A stretch of DNA of 64,000 nt from Pseudarthrobacter defluvii (lineage in GTDB: Bacteria; Actinomycetota; Actinomycetes; Actinomycetales; Micrococcaceae). Positions 2,366 through 35,053 of the stretch are shown piece after piece. The translations under genes and the position numbers were made by a program. Location of the stretch: assembly GCF_030816725.1 (NCBI RefSeq), contig NZ_JAUSYG010000001.1, positions 992,001 through 1,056,000 on the forward strand. The letters are read 5' to 3'. The notes beneath the pieces are model-generated. The model ran no database searches, was not told where the DNA came from, and saw nothing but the letters and a program-made list of their open reading frames with translations. Every line of letters starts with the position of its first letter. Within the stretch, counting starts at the first letter, position 1.

Positions 2366-2439
2366 GGCGGTGTAGCTCAGTTGGTTAGAGCGCACGACTC
2401 ATAATCGTGAGGTCGGGAGATCGAGCCTCCCCACCGCTA
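2366..2439 (+). tRNA. tRNA-Met (anticodon CAT), integration target
   Basis: The acceptor arm GGCGGTG pairs with CACCGCT (G1-U72 wobble), with A73 at 2439. The D arm is canonical, the anticodon loop is CTCATAA and the T arm is intact. CAT could also mark tRNA-Ile2, but the form resembles actinobacterial elongator tRNA-Met. The 3' half from 2393 onward is duplicated exactly at 35005-35053, so this gene is the attachment site of the element. The element's own end restores the full tRNA, which stays functional. Confidence 0.92.
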
Positions 2440-2441
2440 CA
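2393..2441 (+). repeat. attL: left 49-bp direct repeat (tRNA-Met 3' half)
   Basis: Bases 2393-2441 are identical to 35005-35053 and cover the anticodon arm to the 3' end of tRNA-Met plus two bases. Sequence diverges immediately on both sides (GC before versus AA; TAG after versus AAG). This is the usual signature of a tyrosine recombinase inserting at a tRNA gene. Confidence 0.93.
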
Positions 2442-4428: not shown

Positions 4429-5772
4429 CTAAGGAAGAATTACCTTCCAATGGTCATTAATGCGCTCCGCTGCTCTTGAAGCATAGTCAAAGTGGCTTCC
4501 CGAATATGCGTTCGTTGTCGCCACATCCGAGTGGCCAAGAATAGCCCGCACATCGTGCAGTGGGACGCCCATGGTCAGCATGTTTGAGGCAGCCGTGTGC
4601 CTGAGATCATGGAAGCACATACCGGGCTTTCCGATCGACTTTCGGATCGCGTCCCAGTTTAGAGACCGCCGCAAATTGCTTCCACGGATGGTTGAGCCTG
4701 CGGGCGTTGTTAGGAGCTGCTCACTTGGTGCTTTTCCCTGCATCGCCGCTTGTAAGGCGGCTCGCAAGGAGTCGGGGATCGGTGCCGTCCTGCACTTTTT
4801 CCCCTTCGTCTGACCAAGCTTAAGTTCTCCGTTTTCATCGAGAAAGTATGCGCGGTTGACCGCCAAAACTCCCGCCGATAGGTTCACATCGGTAACTCTC
4901 AACGCGGTTGCTTCATTGAAGCGTAGGCCGGTATGGAGCAAAGTTTGAATAAACCAGTCATATGCAGGGTCTTGTCCTTGCATGATGCGTAGTAGGTCGG
5001 CTTGCTGTCCGCCCGTCAGCGCGCGTTCTCCAACGTTGGTAGTAGTAGTTGATTTTGGACGTTCCACACCTCGAACGGGATTCTTGCCGATCCGGTTCTG
5101 TGCCACAGCCTTATCCAGAAGTTGAGATAGGTAAGCCAGTGCGCTGCAAACGGTTGAGGGTGTCGCGCTTTCCAACCAATTCTGTATGGCCTCCTCAACA
5201 ACGTCCGGGCTAATGTCTCCCAGCCTGAAATTTCCGAGATCGGGCAAAATACGAATTCTCCACGCACGGTCGTAGTCCCGCACCGTGTTGGGGGTACGGC
5301 CTGCCTTAAGAACCGATCCCTGCGCTTCCTTCTGGAAGTCCGCGAGAGATGTCTTAGCCCGCTGGCCGGGAGGAGGATTGCCCTGTGCGATGTCGAGTTT
5401 AAGGTTCGCTAGTCCCTTTTTCGCAGCCGCAAGCGTGGGATAGCTCTTGGACGTAGAACGCCACGAGCCGTTTACCTGCTGGAGTTCCTGTTCCACACGA
5501 TAGGGCAGCTTGGGCCGGTTTTCTACGTACCGTATGCCAGCAGGCAACACGTTGCCTTTTGGGTCTGTCCTTGCAGGACGCTTGCCCGACATCCGCTTCT
5601 CATCCTCAACCCGTTCTGGGTTCGACGAAGGCGCGTGGCGCACGGCGACACCATCCATCTGGGCGGCAGCGGATGAACGCGGCTCGGACTGAATCAACCG
5701 CTTTTTGAACTTTGCATTCCCCATAAGATCGATGACGGTGGCTGACGCCTCGGCAAATTTCTCGTTCTTCAT
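4429..5772 (-). CDS. int: Tyrosine site-specific integrase
   Basis: 447 residues. An AP2-like N-terminal DNA-binding region and a SAM-like core-binding domain (about 140-235) precede the catalytic domain. The catalytic set is visible: R284 in HTGLRFNE, H388 and R391 in HDLRH, H414 in LGHS and nucleophile Y423 in NAYSG. It should cut and join the 49-bp tRNA-Met cores. The start is ATG 5772, with GGAGGT seven bases upstream; this ATG overlaps the excisionase stop as ATGA, so the two are translationally coupled. Longer in-frame starts would lie inside xis. The integrase reads toward attL from 2 kb inside the element. Confidence 0.95.
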   Translation of the reverse strand: MKNEKFAEASATVIDLMGNAKFKKRLIQSEPRSSAAAQMDGVAVRHAPSSNPERVEDEKRMSGKRPARTDPKGNVLPAGIRYVENRPKLPYRVEQELQQVNGSWRSTSKSYPTLAAAKKGLANLKLDIAQGNPPPGQRAKTSLADFQKEAQGSVLKAGRTPNTVRDYDRAWRIRILPDLGNFRLGDISPDVVEEAIQNWLESATPSTVCSALAYLSQLLDKAVAQNRIGKNPVRGVERPKSTTTTNVGERALTGGQQADLLRIMQGQDPAYDWFIQTLLHTGLRFNEATALRVTDVNLSAGVLAVNRAYFLDENGELKLGQTKGKKCRTAPIPDSLRAALQAAMQGKAPSEQLLTTPAGSTIRGSNLRRSLNWDAIRKSIGKPGMCFHDLRHTAASNMLTMGVPLHDVRAILGHSDVATTNAYSGSHFDYASRAAERINDHWKVILP

Positions 5773-5984
5773 TTGGTGACCTCCGTATTGGACGCAATCC
5801 ATGAGTCGATGTTGGCGCGCGTCCAACGGAGGTTTCTGCCAACCCTTGTTGCAGGCGGGAAGTTGCCCCTCTTACGGAGACCACGAGCGCTGTTGGGTGA
5901 TATTCCCAGAATTTGGGCAGTCTCGGCAAGTGAGAGCAAGCGATCAGCCGACGCGGAGTAACGGAGTTTAACTACATTAGACAC
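5769..5984 (-). CDS. xis: Excisionase-like helix-turn-helix protein
   Basis: 71 residues with a MerR-type winged-helix fold: LAETAQILGISPNSARGL forms the DNA-reading helices, followed by a basic wing ending in TRANIDSWI. Such proteins bend att DNA and drive excision by the partner integrase. The start is GTG 5984 with GAAGGGG six bases before it. It is co-transcribed with and overlaps int by four bases, so a single minus-strand promoter in the AT-rich region upstream should control both. Confidence 0.88.
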   Translation of the reverse strand: MSNVVKLRYSASADRLLSLAETAQILGISPNSARGLRKRGNFPPATRVGRNLRWTRANIDSWIASNTEVTK

Positions 5985-6705: not shown

Positions 6706-7272
6706 ATGTCACTCATCGGATACGCACGGGTCTCGACGGCAGACCAGTCACTCAACTCACAGCTCGACGCGTTGAAGGCTGCTGGGTGTAAGAAGATTTA
6801 CCAAGAGAAGATGTCCGGCGTTCGTGACGATCGTCCGGAACTCCAAAAGTGCTTGGACTACATCCGAGACGGTGACACCCTCGTCGTCCTAAAACTCGAC
6901 AGGCTTGGACGATCACTGCACCACCTCGTCACTGTGATCAACCTGCTTCATGAGAAGGAGGCCAACTTCCGGTCCCTAAGCGACTCGATAGATACGAATT
7001 CACCTAGCGGCAGGCTGACCTTCCACGTCATGGGGGCAATGGCGGAATTCGAGAAGTCACTAAATGCGGACAGAACACGTCTCGGGCTGGCTTCCGCTCG
7101 TGCGCGAGGTCGCATTGGTGGCCGCCCTAAGGCTCTGGATTCTGAGAAAGAAGGAATTGTCGATCAGCGTCGAAGCGAGGGCGTCAGCGTGGCAAAGATT
7201 GCGGAAGAGCTGGAGATCGGCGTCGCAACTGTCTATCGCTATTTGAAATCACAGGAAGCCGATGCCGCATGA
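6706..7272 (+). CDS. Serine recombinase, resolvase/invertase family
   Basis: 188 residues, the normal length for small serine recombinases. The catalytic domain opens with YARVSTADQ (nucleophile S10) and has the RLGRS segment around residue 67. The helix joining to the DNA-binding domain carries GRIGGRPKA, and a C-terminal helix-turn-helix contains VSVAKIAEELEIGVATVYRYL. The usual ERTR segment reads NADRTRLGL here, a mild departure. It may resolve dimers of the excised element or act on inverted sites; no second obvious crossover site was found. The 9-bp inverted repeat just upstream suggests self-regulation. Confidence 0.93.
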   Translation: MSLIGYARVSTADQSLNSQLDALKAAGCKKIYQEKMSGVRDDRPELQKCLDYIRDGDTLVVLKLDRLGRSLHHLVTVINLLHEKEANFRSLSDSIDTNSPSGRLTFHVMGAMAEFEKSLNADRTRLGLASARARGRIGGRPKALDSEKEGIVDQRRSEGVSVAKIAEELEIGVATVYRYLKSQEADAA

Positions 7273-7623: not shown

Positions 7624-8622
7624 TTGAGCAACAAGGGGTTTGTGGCAGAGACTATAGCCCTTGCGAAGGCAGACCCGGCGGGTGCTGTCACCGGCCTCGC
7701 AGGAGTCGTGGGTGTTGGTGTCGCATTGATGGACCTCTTCACGCCGTTCGAGCTACCAGCAGACGTTCCCGACGAGGTCTTCCTTTTCGGATTATCGACC
7801 TTTCTGCTCAGCGTGTATGGAGCCTCCCGTCTGCGCCGTATTCGCGACAAGGAAGAGCGGCTACGAGATGATCGCCATGACCTGCTCCTAGGGCAGATCG
7901 CGCAGTTAGTGGAAGAAGCGGAACTTAGGCAGGTGCCGAGCGGAGAAATCAACACTCTTTTGGTTGCCGAACTGAGTAGCACTTCTGGGTGGTGGTTTCG
8001 GGGAGGCTCTGGGCGTTGGTTCAGCCGCACAGTGTTGCCTGCTTTAGCTGAGCGAAAAGTTCCGCAGCCCGTTTCCATTCAGATACTTGACCCTAGGGAT
8101 AAGCACTTATGTGCGCGCTATGCGTCTTACCGAAGTCAACAGCGCGACCCGGCTGACATCCGTGACAATGAATCGGACCCAAGAGCTATCCAAACTGATT
8201 TACTCGCGTGCATCCTGTCTGCCCGAGTTCATGCCTCGCATTCTCGCATCAATGAAGACATAGTGCTTCTTCGCACCTACAGTCCAATGCGGATCGATAT
8301 GGGGTCATCAATGCTATTAGCTACGGTGGCGTCACAGACGGCGCCTGCACTGATGGCGAGGCACGATAGTTTTTTTTACAAGAGCATCAAGGACGAGTTC
8401 GAAAGCGCTGCCCATGGCCATGCCGTCCTTCGTTCCAACTTTGACGATCGCCGTATACCACGACCAAAGGACATGACGGCAGAGTCTGCTCGTGCCGTTC
8501 TTGAAGGGTACGAGGTCATCGTCGGTGAAGAGCAGCCCACATCTCTGCTGTCGGGATTCGCACGTGCAGAGGACCTTAATTTTGAAGACATCTACAGGAA
8601 GGCATTTTGCGTCGATGCTTGA
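7624..8622 (+). CDS. Two-TM membrane protein with soluble C-terminal domain, first gene of putative defence operon
   Basis: 332 residues. Two hydrophobic segments (about 20-39 and 48-66) are followed by a basic, coiled-coil-like linker and a soluble domain of about 230 residues. That domain includes a conserved-looking block VSIQILDPRDKHLCARYASY (~150-170), which suggests a Rossmann-like or PLD-like alpha/beta fold, but I cannot name the family. TTG 7624 is the likely start (AGGAAG upstream). The stop lies inside the next gene (8-bp overlap). A membrane anchor fused to a possible sensor or effector domain, next to a modification-dependent nuclease, suggests a defence role; this is inference. 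Confidence 0.75.
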   Translation: MSNKGFVAETIALAKADPAGAVTGLAGVVGVGVALMDLFTPFELPADVPDEVFLFGLSTFLLSVYGASRLRRIRDKEERLRDDRHDLLLGQIAQLVEEAELRQVPSGEINTLLVAELSSTSGWWFRGGSGRWFSRTVLPALAERKVPQPVSIQILDPRDKHLCARYASYRSQQRDPADIRDNESDPRAIQTDLLACILSARVHASHSRINEDIVLLRTYSPMRIDMGSSMLLATVASQTAPALMARHDSFFYKSIKDEFESAAHGHAVLRSNFDDRRIPRPKDMTAESARAVLEGYEVIVGEEQPTSLLSGFARAEDLNFEDIYRKAFCVDA

Positions 8623-9262
8623 GTTCACGGCCTCAGGGGTACAAGGAATCTTCGACAACGTCGGCATTAACAGTGCGCTGGCCAGAAGCATCCTTATAGA
8701 GGTAGCAGAAGCCCTTCCGCAGGTACAGGCTACGGAACATCCCCTTGGTTTTGCTCACCTAGAGCTGACCTCTGTTCTAGGCACTTCATTTCGGACGCGG
8801 CTGCATCTGTGGACACAGGAAACTCGACAATGGGCAGACGAACTTGGAAGCCTTCACGACCACACTTGGGAGCTCAATAGCGCGGTGCTCACGGGCGGAC
8901 TGACTGACACCTATCTGGAGCCTCGACAAACGGATGACGGGCAGTACGGCGCCTACCAAATCCAGTACGGGAGTGGCCGCAACACGACAATTCGTCTCGC
9001 CGGTAGGTGGGCGCTGGACGAGCGCGGCAGGAGAAAGGTCGTAGCAGGAGAGACATACAAACTGCCTCCGCGAGCAGTGCACAGGACCGTCGTTGATTCC
9101 TTCCCGACAGCGACTTTGGTGATAGCGAGAGAGATGGGAGGGGAGGGGCCGAAAGTGTTCCTACCCGGTGCTGCCAGTGAGCTACCGGCTGGAGAACGGA
9201 TGGAGATCGACCCTAGGTGGACGTATCAAGCTTTGCAGCGGGCGATAGCATCGCTGTCGTGA
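8615..9262 (+). CDS. Cupin-fold protein, second gene of putative defence operon
   Basis: 215 residues. The middle carries HDH followed two residues later by Glu (about residues 86-91), then a glycine turn and, about 65 residues on, LPPRAVHRTV. These are the two metal-binding blocks of cupins such as cysteine-dioxygenase-like enzymes, with three His and one Glu as likely ligands. The reaction is unknown. ATG 8615 overlaps the previous stop by eight bases, and its stop overlaps the next GTG as GTGA, so translation is coupled. A longer frame from 8492 would overlap the upstream gene heavily and is not preferred. Confidence 0.75.
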   Translation: MLEFTASGVQGIFDNVGINSALARSILIEVAEALPQVQATEHPLGFAHLELTSVLGTSFRTRLHLWTQETRQWADELGSLHDHTWELNSAVLTGGLTDTYLEPRQTDDGQYGAYQIQYGSGRNTTIRLAGRWALDERGRRKVVAGETYKLPPRAVHRTVVDSFPTATLVIAREMGGEGPKVFLPGAASELPAGERMEIDPRWTYQALQRAIASLS

Positions 9263-9411
9263 TTAGTAAAGTACCCGCCACGGGCGCCACACGTTCTCCA
9301 ATTGTGGATTGCGCACAAAAACTAATGCATTTCATAGGGCCGCCTCTGTCCAAAGAACATATGCGTCTAAAAGGCGCTCCAACTGTGCTTCTCGGCAATG
9401 AAGCGAACTAA
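9259..9411 (+). CDS. Small protein in the SRA-HNH operon
   Basis: A 50-codon frame starts at GTG 9259 inside the cupin stop (GTGA) and ends 14 bases into the SRA-HNH gene. Its only support is this gap-filling, coupled position; the sequence shows no known domain. It may be a short accessory protein or a translational bridge to the downstream nuclease. Confidence 0.4.
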   Translation: MISKVPATGATRSPIVDCAQKLMHFIGPPLSKEHMRLKGAPTVLLGNEAN

Positions 9412-10609
9412 CAGCGATATCCACGGTGAGCGCATTCTCACTCTCCTGTCGCGCCAAAAGAGCGGAGAGTTGTCCACTGAGCAGCTTTTCCTGCAATTGG
9501 AGGCGGGGTACGGGTTCCTCCTGAACAGTGTTGATCACGAGGTACCGAGCAGTGAGCAAGTTAATCGTCGCCCACGTGAGAACTGGAAAATACGGGTTGG
9601 TGCCACCAAAAAGTATTTGCGATCGCGCGGTTGGATTTCTGACTCCCCAAACAGCCTTTGGCGCATATCAGAGGCTGGCAGGCGTCGCGCGAAAGAATTA
9701 GCGGAGGTGGCAGTGATGTCAACGAGCACACGAGACCGAATCATTTATGGAGATATCGTCGGGTACGAAGCCCCACAGGAGTTCGAAAACCGCAGGGCGG
9801 CGTTTCTGGCTGGTGTTCATCGACAAACACAGGCTGGCATTTCCGGCGGGGCTGAGGGAGTTGACGCAATTTGCCTCTCCGACGGGTATTCGGACGACGC
9901 CTTTGATGGCGACTTGATAACTTACACGGGTTTCGGGGGACAGGACCCAACCACGCGGCTTCATATCGCAGACCAACAACTCATTCGGGGCAACCTTGGG
10001 TTGGTACGCAATTACGAGTTGGAACGTCCAGTCAGAGTTCTCGTGAAGAAGTCGGTGTTGACTAAAAATCGCCGAGACAGCAGCTATTTGTACGTGGGAC
10101 TCTACGTAGTCGTTCACTGGGATTGGGCGCTGCGAGACGGATTCAAAATCCTCGTCTATCAACTCAAATCCCTTACTGGTCAAACCGAAGCTGGACTGGT
10201 TTCTTCTATCGCCGTCTTGACGGGTGGCGCCGAGGAGCCGGAACGCCGCGACTCGTTGAGTAGCAGAATCGTACGTGACTATAGCGTCGCGGAGGCAGTG
10301 AAGAGGCTCTACGCGGACACCTGCCAAGTGTGCCGTACGCAGCTTCGAACGGCGGCTGGGACATACTCAGAGGCGGCACACATCAGGCCTCTTGGAGCAC
10401 CACATCGAGGTCCAGACGTGCCGTCGAACCTCCTGTGCCTATGCCCAAATTGCCACAAGCAGTTTGATGGACATGCGCTGACCATTGACGACGACGGCTC
10501 AGTTTTCGCCTTCCAGACCCGCATTGGCGCTCTTCATGTCCATCCACGGCATCCCATCGATAAGGAGCATCTCGCCTACCACCGTGCTAGCTCAGTACCA
10601 CAAAGTTGA
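9398..10609 (+). CDS. SRA-HNH modification-dependent (type IV) restriction endonuclease
   Basis: 403 residues in three parts. An N-terminal winged-helix region (~1-105) ends in WRISEAGRRRAKEL. An SRA/YDG domain (~115-275) has YGDIVGYEAP, the flipped-base pocket region ISGGAEGVDAICLSDGY and the DGDLITYTGFGG strand. A C-terminal HNH nuclease has C308xxC, then EAAHIRPLG and CLCPNCHKQFD (~327-357). SRA domains read 5-methyl- or 5-hydroxymethylcytosine, and known SRA-HNH enzymes (TagI, ScoMcrA type) cut modified DNA, so this should attack phage or foreign DNA carrying modified cytosines. It is the last gene of a four-gene overlapping operon. Confidence 0.9.
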   Translation: MKRTNSDIHGERILTLLSRQKSGELSTEQLFLQLEAGYGFLLNSVDHEVPSSEQVNRRPRENWKIRVGATKKYLRSRGWISDSPNSLWRISEAGRRRAKELAEVAVMSTSTRDRIIYGDIVGYEAPQEFENRRAAFLAGVHRQTQAGISGGAEGVDAICLSDGYSDDAFDGDLITYTGFGGQDPTTRLHIADQQLIRGNLGLVRNYELERPVRVLVKKSVLTKNRRDSSYLYVGLYVVVHWDWALRDGFKILVYQLKSLTGQTEAGLVSSIAVLTGGAEEPERRDSLSSRIVRDYSVAEAVKRLYADTCQVCRTQLRTAAGTYSEAAHIRPLGAPHRGPDVPSNLLCLCPNCHKQFDGHALTIDDDGSVFAFQTRIGALHVHPRHPIDKEHLAYHRASSVPQS

Positions 10610-10723
10610 TCTGCATCAGGTTGGGGTGCTTGCATCTTTGAACGACGCACTGTGGAATCCGTCGTAGCACTTGCACTGTCCTTCACTACTTCCCTAGGAA
10701 ACAAATTTTCAAAGGAAGACCGC

Positions 10724-10975
10724 TTAAGTATCCTGCTGCATGTTCTCGGTGGGCAGGGCTTTGGCTGATTCAACGGATGTTTCATAAGCACGCTGAATGT
10801 AGGCCTCAATCTCTTTGCGTTCAATCCGCCAAACGCCACGGCCACCTACTTGAATACCCCTTAGCTCCCCCGATCTCAGCAATTCCCTGATTGTCGGCTG
10901 TCCGACAGACAACTCGTCGGCGACTTGCTGAAGGCTCACGAAACGGGGCCCGATCTGGGGCGCGGAGTGGTCGGT
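10724..10975 (-). CDS. Excisionase/BldC-type helix-turn-helix regulator
   Basis: About 84 residues from ATG 10975 (an in-frame ATG at 10990 is possible; no strong ribosome site precedes either). The fold is MerR-like: FVSLQQVADELSVGQPTIRE then LLRSGELRGIQVGGRGVWRI and a helix ending in EAYIQRAYE. It lies between the SRA-HNH operon and the helicase-nuclease/methyltransferase pair and is divergent from the latter. That is the position of a controller protein that times restriction expression. It could also be a second recombination directionality factor. Confidence 0.75.
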   Translation of the reverse strand, partial: TDHSAPQIGPRFVSLQQVADELSVGQPTIRELLRSGELRGIQVGGRGVWRIERKEIEAYIQRAYETSVESAKALPTENMQQDT

Positions 10976-11249
10976 CATAACTAGGACCATAGCGTAGGTT
11001 TCAATCGCTGAATGGAAGCAGAACTGGCTCAGCTCCTCCGGTTTTCCTTGAGCGCAGAGCACGCACACTCTGCTTGCCCTCAGCGGCTGCCATGCGCGGT
11101 TCCGAAGTGCGGTTGTTGCCCAACCGGGGAAGGGTTAGTTTCGTGTACGGCAGTTCCCACCGGGACGACACCTGTTCGGCGGTGCTAAGGGCAGGAAGAT
11201 GCTGAACTTCCGCTACCGTTATGACGAGTATTTAGCTACATAGCCAAAC

Positions 11250-14200
11250 GTGGGAGCCGCATTGCAGGGTGTCATCGACGAACCGATTCTCAATAACCCC
11301 TATGATCCGCCGTCCCGTCACTACGTGTTAGGCCCCAACGGTCCCACGGGTGAGATACGGGATGGACGTCGAGCGAGCGAGTCTTTCATACCAATCGCAG
11401 CCAGCCGTAAGGGTGGCACCGTAGGCGCCGCTGACAGTGTGCAGGAAGCGTTCGACTTCGACACAACTGGTGAGCGAATGGAACGCAATATCCTCGTGAA
11501 CGAGTTGCGCAACGAGGTAGCACGGTGGCGTCAATTCAACTTTGAGCACGCGACCCCAGTGACTAAGAAACTGCTCTGGCACTGGTCGAATCCGGACCGA
11601 AGTAACCGAGTGCTGTTCGGCCAGCGCGAAGCAGCGGAGACAGCTATTTTTCTCACGGAAATATCGGGACGCCACGGTTACACGGACTGGCGCATCCGCC
11701 TCAAGCAGGAGAATGCCGACTACAACTCGGGTCTGCCCAGAGTCGCGCTCAAGATGGCGACAGGATCGGGCAAGACGGTCGTCATGGCGATGCTGATCGC
11801 TTGGCAAACGTTAAACAAGGTGTACGGCCAGAAAAACGACGCCAGATTTACTAAGCGATTCTTGCTTGTTGCACCCGGTGTGACGATTCGAGATCGACTG
11901 CGTGTGCTCATGCCTTCCGACAGCGAAGACTACTACACCGCCCGTGATCTCATTCCTGCCGACCTGAAACAGGGCATCAATAATGCAGAGATAGTCATCC
12001 ATAACTATCACGCTTTTATGTTGCGTGACGTCAAAGAGATCAAGGGCATCTCCGCCAACACAAGAAAAATCCTCAGGGCAGGAAACTCTGGTCAGGACCC
12101 GTTCAAGGAAACCCCCGAAATGATGGTCTCGCGCGTGCTGAGGGACTTCTCCGGGGGTAGGGGTCATTCCGAGATAATGATCTTCAACGATGAGGCGCAC
12201 CACTGCTATCAGGACAAAGCAATAACCGGAGAGCCTGAGGGTAAGAAGCTGTCGGCGGAGGCCAAGGAAGCAAAGAAACAGGCAGAAGAAGCCAATGCCG
12301 AGGCCCGAGTCTGGTTCAAGGGACTACAAGCCATCGCGAAAAAAGTTGGCGTGAAACAGGTCGTTGACCTGTCAGCGACTCCTTTCTTCTTGTCCGGGAG
12401 CGGTTATAACGAGGGTTTTCTGTTTCCATGGACGGTCTCGGATTTCTCACTGATGGATGCGATCGAGTCGGGCGTAGTGAAGATTCCGAGAACGCCAGTT
12501 GATGATGACTCCACAAGCGAAATGGTGACGTACCTAAACCTCTGGGACCACATCACTCCACCGCTTCCCAAAACCAACCGCGGTGCTCCTGCCGACAGTC
12601 GTAACTGGGTTCCTCCTACGGCGGTTGAAGGCGCGCTTAGAAGTCTGTATCGCTCCTACGAGGTGTCCTTTCAGCACTGGGAGGAGCATCTCAAGGACCA
12701 CGGGGAGCCGCCACCCGTTTTCATCGTTGTATGTCCTAATACTGTCGTTTCAAAACTTGTCTACGACTGGATTGGCGGTGTCTACGAGTCGTCGGAAGAT
12801 GGAGTCTTGTTTGAGAAGAGTGCGGGAAACCTTGAGCTGTTTCGCAACTCTGAGATGGGACGCCCCCTTCGGCAACCACGCAGCATCTTAGTTGATTCCA
12901 AGACGCTGGAGTCCGGCGAGATACTTAGCGCTGACTTTCGTCTGGCCGCATCCTCAGAGATCGAAACGTTCAAACGGGAGTGGGCAACACGTCATGCCGG
13001 AGCGGATGTCTCAAAAATTTCGGATGAAGATATCTTGCGCGAGGTTATGAACACAGTCGGGAAAAAAGACAAGTTGGGGGCTGAGATTCGCTGCGTCGTC
13101 TCGGTGTCCATGCTCACCGAGGGTTGGGATGCAAACACGGTGAGCCACATACTGGGCATCCGGCCTTTCCGTTCCCAGCTTCTGTGTGAGCAAGTAGTGG
13201 GGCGTGGACTCCGGCGCCGCAACTACGTCGTGGGTGACGACGGCAAGTTCGAGCCGGAGTATGCAAACGTCTACGGCATCCCGTTCGCATTCATCCCAAC
13301 CGACAAAACGATCGTCGAGCAGCTTCCTAAGCCGCCTGCCCTCGAAATCGCTGCACTTGAAGACCGGAAGCATCTCGCAATTGATTTTCCTCACGTTAGT
13401 GGCTACCGCGTAGAAATTCCCGATGCCGAGATACGTATTGATCCCAATAAGGTCAGCAAGTTTGTCGTCAGTAAGGATGAGATTCCGACGTGGACTGATA
13501 CGTACGGAATCATCGGTGCGGGGGAGCGTCAGGTGCAGATTGATCCTGCCCAAGTCCGTTTCCAGCGAGTTGTTTACGAGCTGTCGGGTCGCGTCCTCAA
13601 GACACACTTCACGCCGATCGGGGAGGACATTAAACCTTGGTTGTTTCCACGGCTCGTTGACATGATGCGCCAATGGCTGGCGGCTGCCATCGAGTTGCGT
13701 GACGGGCTGTCGATCGGCCACCTGATGCTTTCGACTGAGCGAGTGAGTGCAGCCTGTGAGGCATTTGTAACGTCCCTGACGATCCAGTCAGAAGAGGCCC
13801 GCACGGAACATGTAATGCCCGTTCTGAGGAGCACACAGTCAACTGGCTCGACGAACGAAGTTTATTTCATGAGCCGTAAACCAGCCATCGAGACCGTGAA
13901 ATCCCACGTTTCACATGTCGTTCTCGACGGGAGGGACGGGAATACTTGGGAGCAAATCGTGTCACTTGAACTGGAGCTTCACCCAGACGTCCACTCTTAC
14001 GTTAAAAATGACCACCTCGGCTTTTCTATCCCCTACGTCCATAAAGGCCGCTCCCACGACTACGTTCCCGATTTCCTCGTGAGACTTCGAAGAAAAGATG
14101 GGGACGAAGTGGACAAGACGCTGATCATTGAAGTGTCTGGTGGACAAAAGTCACCGGGACCTACCAAAGCCAAGGCCGACACGGCGCGTTTCTCTTGGTG

Positions 14201-14345
14201 CGCTGGTGTCAACAATCATCGCGGCTTTGGCAAATGGGCCTACTTGGAAGTCGAGAGCATGGTGGACGTAGCTTCGGCCATTGACGAAGCAATTGTGGAA
14301 CTCTTGAAAACTGTAGATAGCGAGAATATAAATGCCTCCGCGTAA
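11250..14345 (+). CDS. res: Type III-like restriction enzyme, helicase-nuclease subunit (BPTD_3080-like)
   Basis: 1031 residues. A superfamily 2 helicase core has Walker A MATGSGKT (169-176), DEAH box NDEAHH (~313-318) and SATP (~375). Helicase domain 2 ends with the VVGRGLRRRNY motif. The C-terminus holds a PD-(D/E)xK nuclease: YVPDFL (~941) and IIEVSG (~960). From memory this resembles the BPTD_3080 family, found beside a DNA methyltransferase. It would translocate on and cut DNA lacking the partner's methyl mark. GTG 11250 has a poor ribosome site, so the start is uncertain. It overlaps the methyltransferase gene by 14 bases. Confidence 0.88.
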   Translation: MGAALQGVIDEPILNNPYDPPSRHYVLGPNGPTGEIRDGRRASESFIPIAASRKGGTVGAADSVQEAFDFDTTGERMERNILVNELRNEVARWRQFNFEHATPVTKKLLWHWSNPDRSNRVLFGQREAAETAIFLTEISGRHGYTDWRIRLKQENADYNSGLPRVALKMATGSGKTVVMAMLIAWQTLNKVYGQKNDARFTKRFLLVAPGVTIRDRLRVLMPSDSEDYYTARDLIPADLKQGINNAEIVIHNYHAFMLRDVKEIKGISANTRKILRAGNSGQDPFKETPEMMVSRVLRDFSGGRGHSEIMIFNDEAHHCYQDKAITGEPEGKKLSAEAKEAKKQAEEANAEARVWFKGLQAIAKKVGVKQVVDLSATPFFLSGSGYNEGFLFPWTVSDFSLMDAIESGVVKIPRTPVDDDSTSEMVTYLNLWDHITPPLPKTNRGAPADSRNWVPPTAVEGALRSLYRSYEVSFQHWEEHLKDHGEPPPVFIVVCPNTVVSKLVYDWIGGVYESSEDGVLFEKSAGNLELFRNSEMGRPLRQPRSILVDSKTLESGEILSADFRLAASSEIETFKREWATRHAGADVSKISDEDILREVMNTVGKKDKLGAEIRCVVSVSMLTEGWDANTVSHILGIRPFRSQLLCEQVVGRGLRRRNYVVGDDGKFEPEYANVYGIPFAFIPTDKTIVEQLPKPPALEIAALEDRKHLAIDFPHVSGYRVEIPDAEIRIDPNKVSKFVVSKDEIPTWTDTYGIIGAGERQVQIDPAQVRFQRVVYELSGRVLKTHFTPIGEDIKPWLFPRLVDMMRQWLAAAIELRDGLSIGHLMLSTERVSAACEAFVTSLTIQSEEARTEHVMPVLRSTQSTGSTNEVYFMSRKPAIETVKSHVSHVVLDGRDGNTWEQIVSLELELHPDVHSYVKNDHLGFSIPYVHKGRSHDYVPDFLVRLRRKDGDEVDKTLIIEVSGGQKSPGPTKAKADTARFSWCAGVNNHRGFGKWAYLEVESMVDVASAIDEAIVELLKTVDSENINASA

Positions 14346-17040
14346 GACCACACTTGCCCCGACGCCAGTCGAGTCCGTTCATCACGCTGATAAGCGGACA
14401 AATATTCCCACAGCCGATGCTCATCATTTCGTCACGGAGGAGATGGAGCAGCCCAAAACATTGGTATACCCGCGCGACACTTCCCTCGACCCCCAGTTGG
14501 TCTGGAAGGGCAAAGACGAGCAGGATTCATCCGGGCTAGTCGTGGACGCTCCTCCCATCTACATACAGGAAAAGATCGATCCTAGAGTCCTGATCGAGAA
14601 CCTTCGGAAGACGGCCCTTGAGGGTGAAGGTGAGCCCGACGGTGTCCTATTCGAAATGTTCGATGGACTAGATGAGTATTCCGCCGTCGATTTCTACCAC
14701 CACGACGCCAATTGGTCCAACAGGATGATATTGGGCGACTCATTGCAGGTTATGGGGTCACTCGCAGAGCGAGAAAACCTTCGTGGCCAGGTGCAGATGG
14801 TCTATATCGACCCGCCGTACGGGATCAAGTTCGGCTCCAACTGGCAGGTCTCCGCCCGGCAGCGTGACGTGTCCGACGGCAAACTTAGCGACACAGTTCG
14901 GGAAGCCGAACAAGTAAAAGCCTTCCGGGACACTTGGGAGCTGGGCATTCACTCCTATCTCGCGTATTTACGCGACAGGCTGATTACGGCCCGAGATTTG
15001 CTGGCCAATAGCGGAAGCGTATTCGTCCAAATCGGTGACGAGAACGTGCATCTCGTACGCAACCTCATGGACGAGGTTTTCGGGGCCGAGAATTGGATTT
15101 CAACTATCGTCGTGTCGAAGACGAGCAGCGCCACGGGTGACTTCATCGGCGGAACCGTGGACTATGTCCATTGGTTTGCCAAAAATAAGGAAATCGTCAA
15201 GCATCGTCAGCTTTTTCGTAAGAAAATCGGCGGTGGCGACGGTGCCGGAATGTACACCCGAGTTGAACTGCCAAGCGGAGAACGGAGGAGCTTAACCGCG
15301 CCTGAGCGCCAAGACATGAGCCTCATACCCGAGGGAGCCAGACTTTTCCGGCACGATAATCTCACGAGCCAAAGCATGGGTCGAGAGAAAGGCGAAGGAG
15401 CGGCGTCGTGGTTCCCCGTCGAGGTTGAGGGCAAAGTCTTTCGCCCAAGCATGCAGGCTCGATGGAAGACCAATGAAGAAGGCATGCGCCGCCTGTTAGC
15501 CGCCGGGCGTGTGGCAGCAGGGCGCAACATGCCTGCATATGTCCGCTACCTTGATGACTTTCCCGCCTTTCCATACACCGAGGTCTGGTCTGACATCGGA
15601 GGCGCACGCGACAAGAATTACGTCGTGGAGACTGCGACGACGATAATCGAGCGGTGCATGCTTATGAGCACCGACCCCGGTGATTTGATACTCGACCCTA
15701 CGTGCGGTTCTGGAACATCCGCGTTCGTGGCAGAGCAGTGGGGGCGGCGATGGATAACTATTGACACCTCGCGCGTCGCCCTCGCGCTGGCTCGGCAGCG
15801 TTTGATGGGAGCCAAGTTTCCGTATTACTTGATGTCTGATTCGATGGACGGGCGGAAGAAGGAAATGGCGCTGTCCGGAAAGCCTTCTGCCTCCGGCCCA
15901 GTCACCAACAACGTGCGTCATGGCTTCGTGTACAAGCGGATACCACATATTACGCTGCGCGCGATCGCCAATAACCCTGACGTCAAGGAAGGCATGGAGA
16001 GGAAGGACATCGACGCCATCATTCGGCGGCATGCAGATTTTGAAGTTCTCGTCGATGATCCCTTTGAGGACAAGCGCAAGGTTCGAGTAAGCGGACCATT
16101 TACGGTGGAGTCCCTTACACCGCATCGTTCTCTGACTTTCGAGGAGGGATCAAAGCAGCAGTCCAAGCCCTCCTCCAGTGGGCGTCAGGCCTCTGCAAGT
16201 TTGGTTGACGATACACCGTTTGAGCAATCGATCCTCGACAATCTGTTCAAGGCAGGTATTCAAAACGGTAGAAAAGCGGAGCGGCTTGTCTTTTCGTCAC
16301 TCGATATGTATCCCGGAACCTTTATGCAAGCAGTCGCGACCAGTACTGAAACGACGGGCGAAAGCAGGATAGGGCTAGCTATTGGTCCTCAATATGGGAC
16401 GGTTTCGCCTACCTTTATCAAGAAGGCGGCACGGGAAGCCATAGAAGCGGACGATATCGACGTGCTCTGCGTGCTAGGTTTTGCATTCGATCCTCGTGCT
16501 ACCAACGTTACGCACGACGACGGGGTGACGGTAGACGCTTCTTCGGCAGGCTTTGCAGAAGTTGCGGGCCAGAGGAAGCTAGGCAAAGTCAATGTCCTTT
16601 TTGTCCGCATGAATTCCGATCTGCTGATGGGAGCGGACTTGAAGAAGACTGGCGCTGGGAACCTCTTCACAGTTTTCGGGGAACCTGATATTGAGGTCAT
16701 CCATGATGTCGATGTCGTAACCGTCCATCTAAAGGGCATTGATGTCTTCGACCCAACAACGGGCGAGGTTCGTTCCGGTGGCACGGACAAAGTCGCCCTC
16801 TGGATGATCGACACTAACTACAACGAAGAGTCTTTCTTCGTACGCCACTGCTATTTCACCGGCGGGGGTGATCCCCTTAAGAAGCTCAGAAACACCCTCA
16901 AAGCTGAGATCAATGCCGAGGCTTGGGATTCTCTGTATTCGACAATTTCTCGTCCGTTCAACAGAGCTGAAACAGGCAAGATCGCCGTCAAGGTTATCAA
17001 TGATTACGGTGACGAAGTCATGAAGGTATTTGAGGTCTGA
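14332..17040 (+). CDS. mod: Type III-like site-specific DNA methyltransferase
   Basis: 902 residues. The catalytic motif IDPPYG (~158-163) precedes the AdoMet-binding motif LDPTCGSGTSAF (~454-465), the beta-class order typical of Mod subunits that make N6-methyladenine (or N4-methylcytosine). The long region after ~500 probably holds target recognition. ATG 14332 lies inside the end of the helicase-nuclease gene (14-bp overlap), so the two are coupled. It should protect host DNA from the partner nuclease. Unusually, the nuclease gene comes first in the operon; regulation may therefore depend on the divergent HTH gene at 10724. Confidence 0.92.
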   Translation: MPPRKTTLAPTPVESVHHADKRTNIPTADAHHFVTEEMEQPKTLVYPRDTSLDPQLVWKGKDEQDSSGLVVDAPPIYIQEKIDPRVLIENLRKTALEGEGEPDGVLFEMFDGLDEYSAVDFYHHDANWSNRMILGDSLQVMGSLAERENLRGQVQMVYIDPPYGIKFGSNWQVSARQRDVSDGKLSDTVREAEQVKAFRDTWELGIHSYLAYLRDRLITARDLLANSGSVFVQIGDENVHLVRNLMDEVFGAENWISTIVVSKTSSATGDFIGGTVDYVHWFAKNKEIVKHRQLFRKKIGGGDGAGMYTRVELPSGERRSLTAPERQDMSLIPEGARLFRHDNLTSQSMGREKGEGAASWFPVEVEGKVFRPSMQARWKTNEEGMRRLLAAGRVAAGRNMPAYVRYLDDFPAFPYTEVWSDIGGARDKNYVVETATTIIERCMLMSTDPGDLILDPTCGSGTSAFVAEQWGRRWITIDTSRVALALARQRLMGAKFPYYLMSDSMDGRKKEMALSGKPSASGPVTNNVRHGFVYKRIPHITLRAIANNPDVKEGMERKDIDAIIRRHADFEVLVDDPFEDKRKVRVSGPFTVESLTPHRSLTFEEGSKQQSKPSSSGRQASASLVDDTPFEQSILDNLFKAGIQNGRKAERLVFSSLDMYPGTFMQAVATSTETTGESRIGLAIGPQYGTVSPTFIKKAAREAIEADDIDVLCVLGFAFDPRATNVTHDDGVTVDASSAGFAEVAGQRKLGKVNVLFVRMNSDLLMGADLKKTGAGNLFTVFGEPDIEVIHDVDVVTVHLKGIDVFDPTTGEVRSGGTDKVALWMIDTNYNEESFFVRHCYFTGGGDPLKKLRNTLKAEINAEAWDSLYSTISRPFNRAETGKIAVKVINDYGDEVMKVFEV

Positions 17041-35004: not shown

Positions 35005-35053
35005 CACGACTCATAATCGTGAGGTCGGGAGATCGAGCCTCCCCACCGCTACA
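35005..35053 (+). repeat. attR: right 49-bp direct repeat
   Basis: Identical to 2393-2441. It is a partial tRNA-Met (3' half only) with no 5' half, so not a functional tRNA. A terminator hairpin follows immediately (35060-35093). Confidence 0.93.

Follow-up and report, generated by a model that had tools for sequence, protein, structure and literature searches.

Comparison with Known Signalling Systems

Pycsar combines a cyclase (PycC) with a two-helix membrane effector (PycTM), and the effectors of type II Thoeris also have membrane helices. Thoeris systems with macro-domain effectors, as described in PMC11204291, work through an NAD-derived signal and an effector that binds it. The locus studied here is located in a window of 64,000 bp (the whole stretch of DNA analysed) from Pseudarthrobacter defluvii, which is part of a 4.58-Mb single-contig genome and whose proteins have their nearest named relatives in Arthrobacter. 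Two genes on the forward strand of this window, gene 1 (7624–8622) encoding a membrane protein with two predicted transmembrane helices (2TM) and gene 2 (8615–9262) encoding a predicted cupin, were found to form a conserved, previously unlabelled two-gene module that is present across distant bacteria. The pair is similar to Pycsar in its logic of a soluble partner and a two-helix membrane effector, but it differs in that no cyclase was found, the soluble domain of the effector has a predicted phospholipase D (PLD) fold and the partner is a cupin. It would work like the macro-domain Thoeris systems, except that a PLD fold replaces the macro domain and that a cupin is added.

Neither gene gave a match over the cut-off in Pfam, NCBIfam or PADLOC; in particular, no PADLOC model for Pycsar was matched, and Pycsar-like genes were seen only at one relative locus (L016, see below). 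No TIR match was found among the window proteins scanned, which represent part of the reading frames of the element that carries the pair. Searches of sequences of solved structures with the 2TM and cupin profiles gave nothing convincing, and no match below E 0.001 was found in a viral structure library. In the literature, no paper describing a 2TM-cupin pair was detected by its title or the start of its abstract, which is weak evidence of absence as subscription papers were mostly outside the coverage, and a term search showed both “cupin” and “inositol” to be absent from the main texts of PMC8195603 and PMC7159879.

Conservation and Distribution of the 2TM-Cupin Pair

Homologue searches returned 11 proteins for gene 1 and eight for gene 2, including those of the window. 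Several of the named 2TM relatives are alphaproteobacterial. Cupin profiles matched in 6 of 206 genus genomes, in 3 of 197 genomes from the family and in 19 of 296 from the class, each count including the genome of the window; an earlier, narrower cupin profile had matched in 2 of 396 genomes of the phylum. Besides the window, 27 cupin loci were compared, of which 24 were found with cupin profiles (18 of them pairs), while tblastn gave L002 and L003 and a scan for 2TM gave L004; two weak matches (L074 and L075, the latter not cupin-like) were kept in this count. A 2TM partner on the same strand was shown to be present in 21 of the 27 loci, with the 2TM gene first in 17 and the cupin gene first in four, and in 20 of these pairs the gap between profile matches ranged from −38 to +46 bp. 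The partner was also found in 14 of the 19 loci that had not been used for building the 2TM profile. In the reciprocal search, the 2TM profile matched in 13 of the 296 class genomes, and all 13 belonged to the 19 cupin-positive genomes; a lone second 2TM match in one of the genomes (G1022) was located away from the pair of that genome. Alignment A5 included 60 of the 64 profile matches and left out P0069, P0070, P0071 and P0072, among which P0072 (containing a guanylate-cyclase piece) and P0069 (with an odd C-terminus) look like products of recombination or assembly.

The pair was found both in mobile settings and in chromosomal ones that seem stable. In Rhodococcus opacus and Methylobacterium it is carried on plasmids; there the genes overlap, with a serine recombinase gene approximately 400 bp downstream, and ParA and serine recombinase genes are present within 4 kb of the pair on two plasmids. 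The pair of Arthrobacter OVS8 stands among metabolic genes. Two interrupted copies were also observed: a transposase-like frame, recognised by eye, splits the otherwise conserved pair at L068 (8813–9943), and the 2TM gene of L014 (7681–8437) is broken over two frames compared to the very similar pair of L015 and looks like a decayed copy.

Predicted Structure of the 2TM Protein

Gene 1 encodes 332 amino acids from a TTG start codon, with AGGAAG ending 6 bases upstream. The structure model (pLDDT 88.5) showed two N-terminal membrane helices and a long linker helix (modelled helices at residues 18–38 and 50–97), followed by a soluble domain at approximately residues 98–313. Hydrophobicity is clear for the first helix (best 19-residue mean 1.93), and exactly two hydrophobic segments were found in 19 of 21 relatives at a threshold of 1.6. 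The two-TM assignment of a preliminary description of this locus thus held, with a marginal second helix in the window's protein. The same description had left the soluble domain unrecognised, and no family match over the cut-off was obtained for it; structure prediction assigned it a PLD fold, in line with membership of the PLD superfamily.

None of 82 sequences of the gene 1 family (some of them duplicates) contained the catalytic HKD motif (H-x-K-x4-D) at the PLD motif position; the pattern occurred three times, always at residues 276–283, outside this position. In this respect, the protein differs from the PLD-fold nucleases SauUSI, NucT, Nuc and BfiI. Gene 1 as an active PLD enzyme was rejected for the absence of HKD, an absence that on its own leaves other chemistry possible. 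Two other motifs were kept in most members. A GGSG loop at residues 127–130 (8002–8013, forward strand), a putative ligand site, was represented as GG[ST][GA] in 18 of 23 aligned relatives and as GRSG in two and was absent in three, and R-x-D at residues 223–225 (8290–8298, forward strand) was present in 20 of the 23, both counted by eye; the latter would be placed near the HKD site of active PLD enzymes. The sugar-binding domain of TrmB was also compared; TrmB is a transcriptional regulator according to its entry title, whereas gene 1 is predicted to be membrane-anchored.

The Cupin and a Toxin–Antitoxin Alternative

Gene 2 encodes a predicted cupin of 215 amino acids, has an ATG start and overlaps gene 1 by 8 bases. 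Its structure model, although poor, aligns mainly with cupins. A putative three-histidine metal site is formed by H81-x-H83 (8855–8863, forward strand) and H156 (9080–9082), and these three histidines were invariant in all 23 aligned cupins. A profile match (E 1.6e-5) was obtained to PHROG 4786, a phage family annotated as “cysteine dioxygenase.” This match and the putative H-x-H...H site make gene 2 a possible relative of cysteine dioxygenase and other three-histidine cupins, but it gives no match to Pfam CDO_I and has an additional pair of invariant histidines, H42 and H64, that precede H-x-H.

The organization of the pair could also be that of a toxin–antitoxin system, in which gene 1 would encode a membrane-disrupting toxin and the cupin would be the antitoxin, acting by direct binding with no diffusible ligand; such a system would stabilise mobile elements and might secondarily abort infection. 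In its favour, the genes are short, mostly overlap or abut each other and lie on the same strand in each of the 21 pairs, in either order; their position near ParA and serine recombinase genes on two plasmids and in an integrative element here, and their patchy presence in the genus (6/206), would also agree with it. We nevertheless consider it unlikely, as the invariance of the metal-site histidines suggests metal chemistry, the conserved polar motifs of the PLD fold suggest a ligand, and a phosphatase gene follows the pair at most of the class-sample loci (see below).

Small Reading Frame and Translational Coupling

The preliminary description had read four overlapping frames as one operon. 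The frames and their overlaps of 8, 4, and 14 bases were confirmed. The third frame (9259–9411, forward strand), which has a GTG start and overlaps gene 2 by 4 bases, would encode 50 amino acids and is probably not a gene. Its third-position GC was 0.42, compared to 0.56–0.63 in six neighbouring genes, and 50 random codons of its composition would stay open with a chance of 13%. No relative of the 50-amino-acid form was found on plasmids. A 64-amino-acid form starting at GTG 9217 matched no family over the cut-off in Pfam, NCBIfam or PADLOC, and nine loci searched for it contained no relative. When this frame is discounted, the following SRA-HNH gene starts 135 bp past the end of the cupin gene, and the 20 bases preceding its ATG showed no clear ribosome-binding site by eye. 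Joint translation, which had been proposed for all four frames, is therefore supported for genes 1 and 2, with their 8-base overlap, and not for the small frame or the nuclease.

The SRA-HNH Nuclease as a Probable Separate Passenger

Gene 4 (9398–10609, forward strand; 403 amino acids, ATG start, 14-base overlap with the small frame) encodes a predicted modification-dependent endonuclease of the TagI type. It contains an SAD_SRA domain (2e-28, residues 117–262) followed by a C-terminal HNH_2 domain (1e-12, residues 309–364) and matched TagI (6ghs) with E 1e-59 over residues 116–398. The HNH residues given for TagI in PMC6212794, His229, Asn245 and His254, align with H328, N344 and H353, so all three are kept. 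Unlike TagI, gene 4 has approximately 95–115 additional residues at its N-terminus; these match Mrr_N weakly, below the cut-off.

The preliminary description proposed the four genes as a candidate defence system; in such a system, the nuclease would be an effector that acts on modified phage DNA together with the 2TM protein and the cupin. The nuclease is indeed adjacent to the pair and co-directional in the window. However, among the 206 genomes of the genus the cupin was found in six and SRA-HNH in 18 (E 0.001; 14 strong), and only the genome of the window contained both. The closest SRA-HNH relative (71% identity, genome G500) is located beside type I restriction genes, as judged by eye, with another upstream gene and without the pair, and when the SRA-HNH protein was compared by phmmer at E 0.001 with the 27 relative cupin loci (9 to 18 kb each), none of their 2321 reading frames matched. 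As a conserved unit, the four-gene system is largely refuted, and we regard it as very improbable. The 2TM-cupin pairing is very probably real, with the nuclease outside the conserved unit. Both this nuclease and the window's type III restriction genes are probably carried by the same element as independent passengers. In two genus genomes (L076, 7692–10067; L077, 2760–5135), a gene for a 791-amino-acid protein without a PADLOC match directly precedes a close SRA-HNH relative; the protein of G500 has a near twin beside the SRA-HNH copy of G408.

Probable Integrative Element Containing the Pair

The four frames and their surroundings probably belong to the cargo of an integrative element of 32.7 kb. 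This reading is based on a perfect 49-bp direct repeat, a tyrosine integrase and a drop in GC content. The left copy of the repeat (2393–2441, forward strand) covers the 3′ end of a tRNA-Met gene (2366–2440) and is the likely attachment site, and the right copy (35005–35053, forward strand) is likely to mark the far end. The integrase gene (4429–5826, reverse strand) lies approximately 2 kb inside the left end. GC content per 2 kb was 0.53–0.60 between the repeats, compared to 0.66–0.69 beyond 46 kb, with intermediate values (0.59–0.64) at 36–46 kb. Besides genes 1–4, the cargo includes a serine recombinase (resolvase) gene upstream of gene 1 (6706–7272, forward strand) and a type III restriction-modification pair (11250–17040, forward strand) with its restriction subunit at 11250–14345 and methyltransferase at 14332–17040. 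A search of the 18 relatives besides the own genome did not reveal the empty site; all matches to the right flank near the repeat were short (≤44 bp).

Neighbours of Relative Pairs

Defence genes were found next to several relative pairs. At L012 the pair is located 124 bp downstream of a type I restriction operon, and at L013 a type IV restriction gene lies next to it, as does a gene for a DrmD-like helicase. The preliminary description had stated that its defence reading would fall if homologues of the first two genes never occurred near nucleases; this objection fails at these loci. Its proposal of an undescribed defence system is maintained as regards an unlabelled pair that is located in a mobile element together with restriction genes and has some relatives beside defence genes, but not as regards the nuclease as a member.

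At L016, where no 2TM gene is present, the cupin gene overlaps one resembling PycC (PADLOC E 2.5e-5); PycTM lies approximately 2.3 kb away on the same strand, and BREX genes are nearby. The region as a whole (8596–13478) is a Pycsar-like cluster of PycC-like, PycTM and three unnamed genes together with the cupin. At L059 a cupin gene, also without 2TM, stands beside NUDIX and a macro-domain match below the threshold. A gene of the inositol-monophosphatase family was found downstream of the pair in 10 of 12 class-sample pair loci besides that of the window (L060–L063 and L065–L070), and was confirmed with Pfam in the three tested. The next gene after the phosphatase is a TIR-NACHT gene in L062 and L069 (Pfam), and L065 and L070 contain a gene with the same TIR-like start, judged by eye, the later part of which lies outside the view. 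Within the home family (eight genomes), two methyltransferase families matched within 10 kb of the pair in three (G000, G478 weakly, and G596), compared to an expectation of about 1% per locus calculated by hand from 20 matches in approximately 35 Mb, with the 10-kb limit chosen after the loci had been seen.

Trypsin-like peptidase genes are located upstream of the pair on the same strand in L002 (6911–7582) and L015 (6863–7720). Approximately 1.5 kb past the pair of L020 (11758–13260; G676:C8:210302-211729) there is a DUF3375 gene, presumably of Wadjet type; the family was present in all four genomes tested, elsewhere in the other three, and little weight is given to it.

These neighbourhoods could also be those of a housekeeping or stress module, in which a membrane-tethered sensor, an oxygenase of the cupin type and a phosphatase acting on sugars or nucleotides would handle a metabolite, e.g., in thiol or inositol-phosphate chemistry, with no role in defence. 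The inositol-monophosphatase family gene at 10 of 12 loci and the match of the cupin to a cysteine-dioxygenase PHROG would agree with it, as would several loci with no defence gene in view and the position beside or near uvrB in the f93 family, which suggests vertical inheritance. On the other hand, the pair is rare and patchy in its home genus (6/206), is carried by plasmids and an integrative element, and adjoins restriction-modification, BREX/Pycsar or TIR-NACHT genes at several loci. This explanation is doubtful and appears slightly less probable than the toxin–antitoxin system.

Proposed Mechanism

As the best mechanism for the pair, we propose a ligand-gated membrane effector together with a metal enzyme that sets the ligand, to which we tentatively assign a probability of roughly 0.42; this value applies to the mechanism as a whole, including ligand binding, ligand chemistry, the membrane effect and a role in defence. 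The N-terminal helices of gene 1 would anchor a cytoplasmic PLD-fold domain in the membrane. This domain most likely binds a small phosphorylated ligand and cuts nothing, because HKD is absent while GG[ST][GA] and R-x-D are kept in most members about where the active site would be. The cupin, with its putative three-histidine site of the cysteine-dioxygenase type, would most likely make, alter or remove the ligand, or bind gene 1 directly. A shift in this balance, caused by phage infection or another stress, may lead to ligand binding that rearranges or clusters the membrane helices, resulting in membrane damage or a growth stop. The NAD- or nucleotide-linked genes (TIR, NUDIX, cyclase, phosphatase) found in the company of some relatives suggest that the ligand is nucleotide-derived.

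Several observations weigh against this mechanism. The second membrane helix of gene 1 is only marginally hydrophobic (best 19-residue mean 1.47), and a short 2TM form in L013, L015 and L020 does not contain either of the two pocket motifs. The structure model of gene 2 is poor (pLDDT 50.7), and Pfam CDO_I gave no match to gene 2 (a control search of the own genome with CDO_I gave no match either). Six of the 27 cupin loci do not have a 2TM partner (L016, L059, and L072–L075), including two solid cupin matches (L072 and L073, E 1e-16). PADLOC contains no model for either gene that was matched. In the f93 family, uvrB, identified by eye, is located directly beside the pair in L066, L067 and L068 and approximately 4 kb off in L064 and L071, a position that looks more like stable inheritance than like a mobile defence system, and no defence gene was recognised among the printed neighbours of L004, L014 and L021. 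Finally, the phosphatase and TIR-NACHT genes are absent at the pair of the window, which leaves the relatives as the basis for a link to nucleotide signalling.

Phage Relatives of the Cupin

Weak tblastn matches to the cupin were found in Pseudomonas phages F8 (Pbunavirus; L111) and HHBS12_2 (L113) and in Brevundimonas phage Bambus (L112), and cupin relatives are also present in giant phages of Brevundimonas and Caulobacter. These phage cupins had profile scores of 47–58 bits, while none of 40,200 shuffled sequences scored above 10. The form in Pseudomonas phages corresponds to PHROG 4784, a family of unknown function that matched 303 phage records at E 0.001, of which 295 were labelled Pseudomonas or Pbunalikevirus. 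When IMG/VR was scanned for patterns of the actinobacterial cupin motifs, no match was obtained, which says little since the phage records hold distant relatives. No 2TM match was found in the stretches read around the cupins of F8, HHBS12_2 and Bambus, and tblastn of the phage collection with the 2TM protein of the window gave no match, a search in which distant relatives could be missed.

A further and rather improbable idea is that ligand-gated membrane effectors of a new class are held back by the cupin, which would act as their brake by removing or oxidising the signal that opens the 2TM pseudo-phospholipase, and that phages have taken up this brake to switch off this or a related defence. 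If true, this would provide a testable idea for PHROG 4784, a gene of unknown function in approximately 295 Pseudomonas phage records. For the pair itself, the striking nuclease neighbour is shown to be outside the conserved unit. If the proposed mechanism is correct, a catalytically silent phospholipase D would be a new sensor fold in bacterial membrane-effector systems, where it would be joined by a cysteine-dioxygenase-like cupin enzyme.

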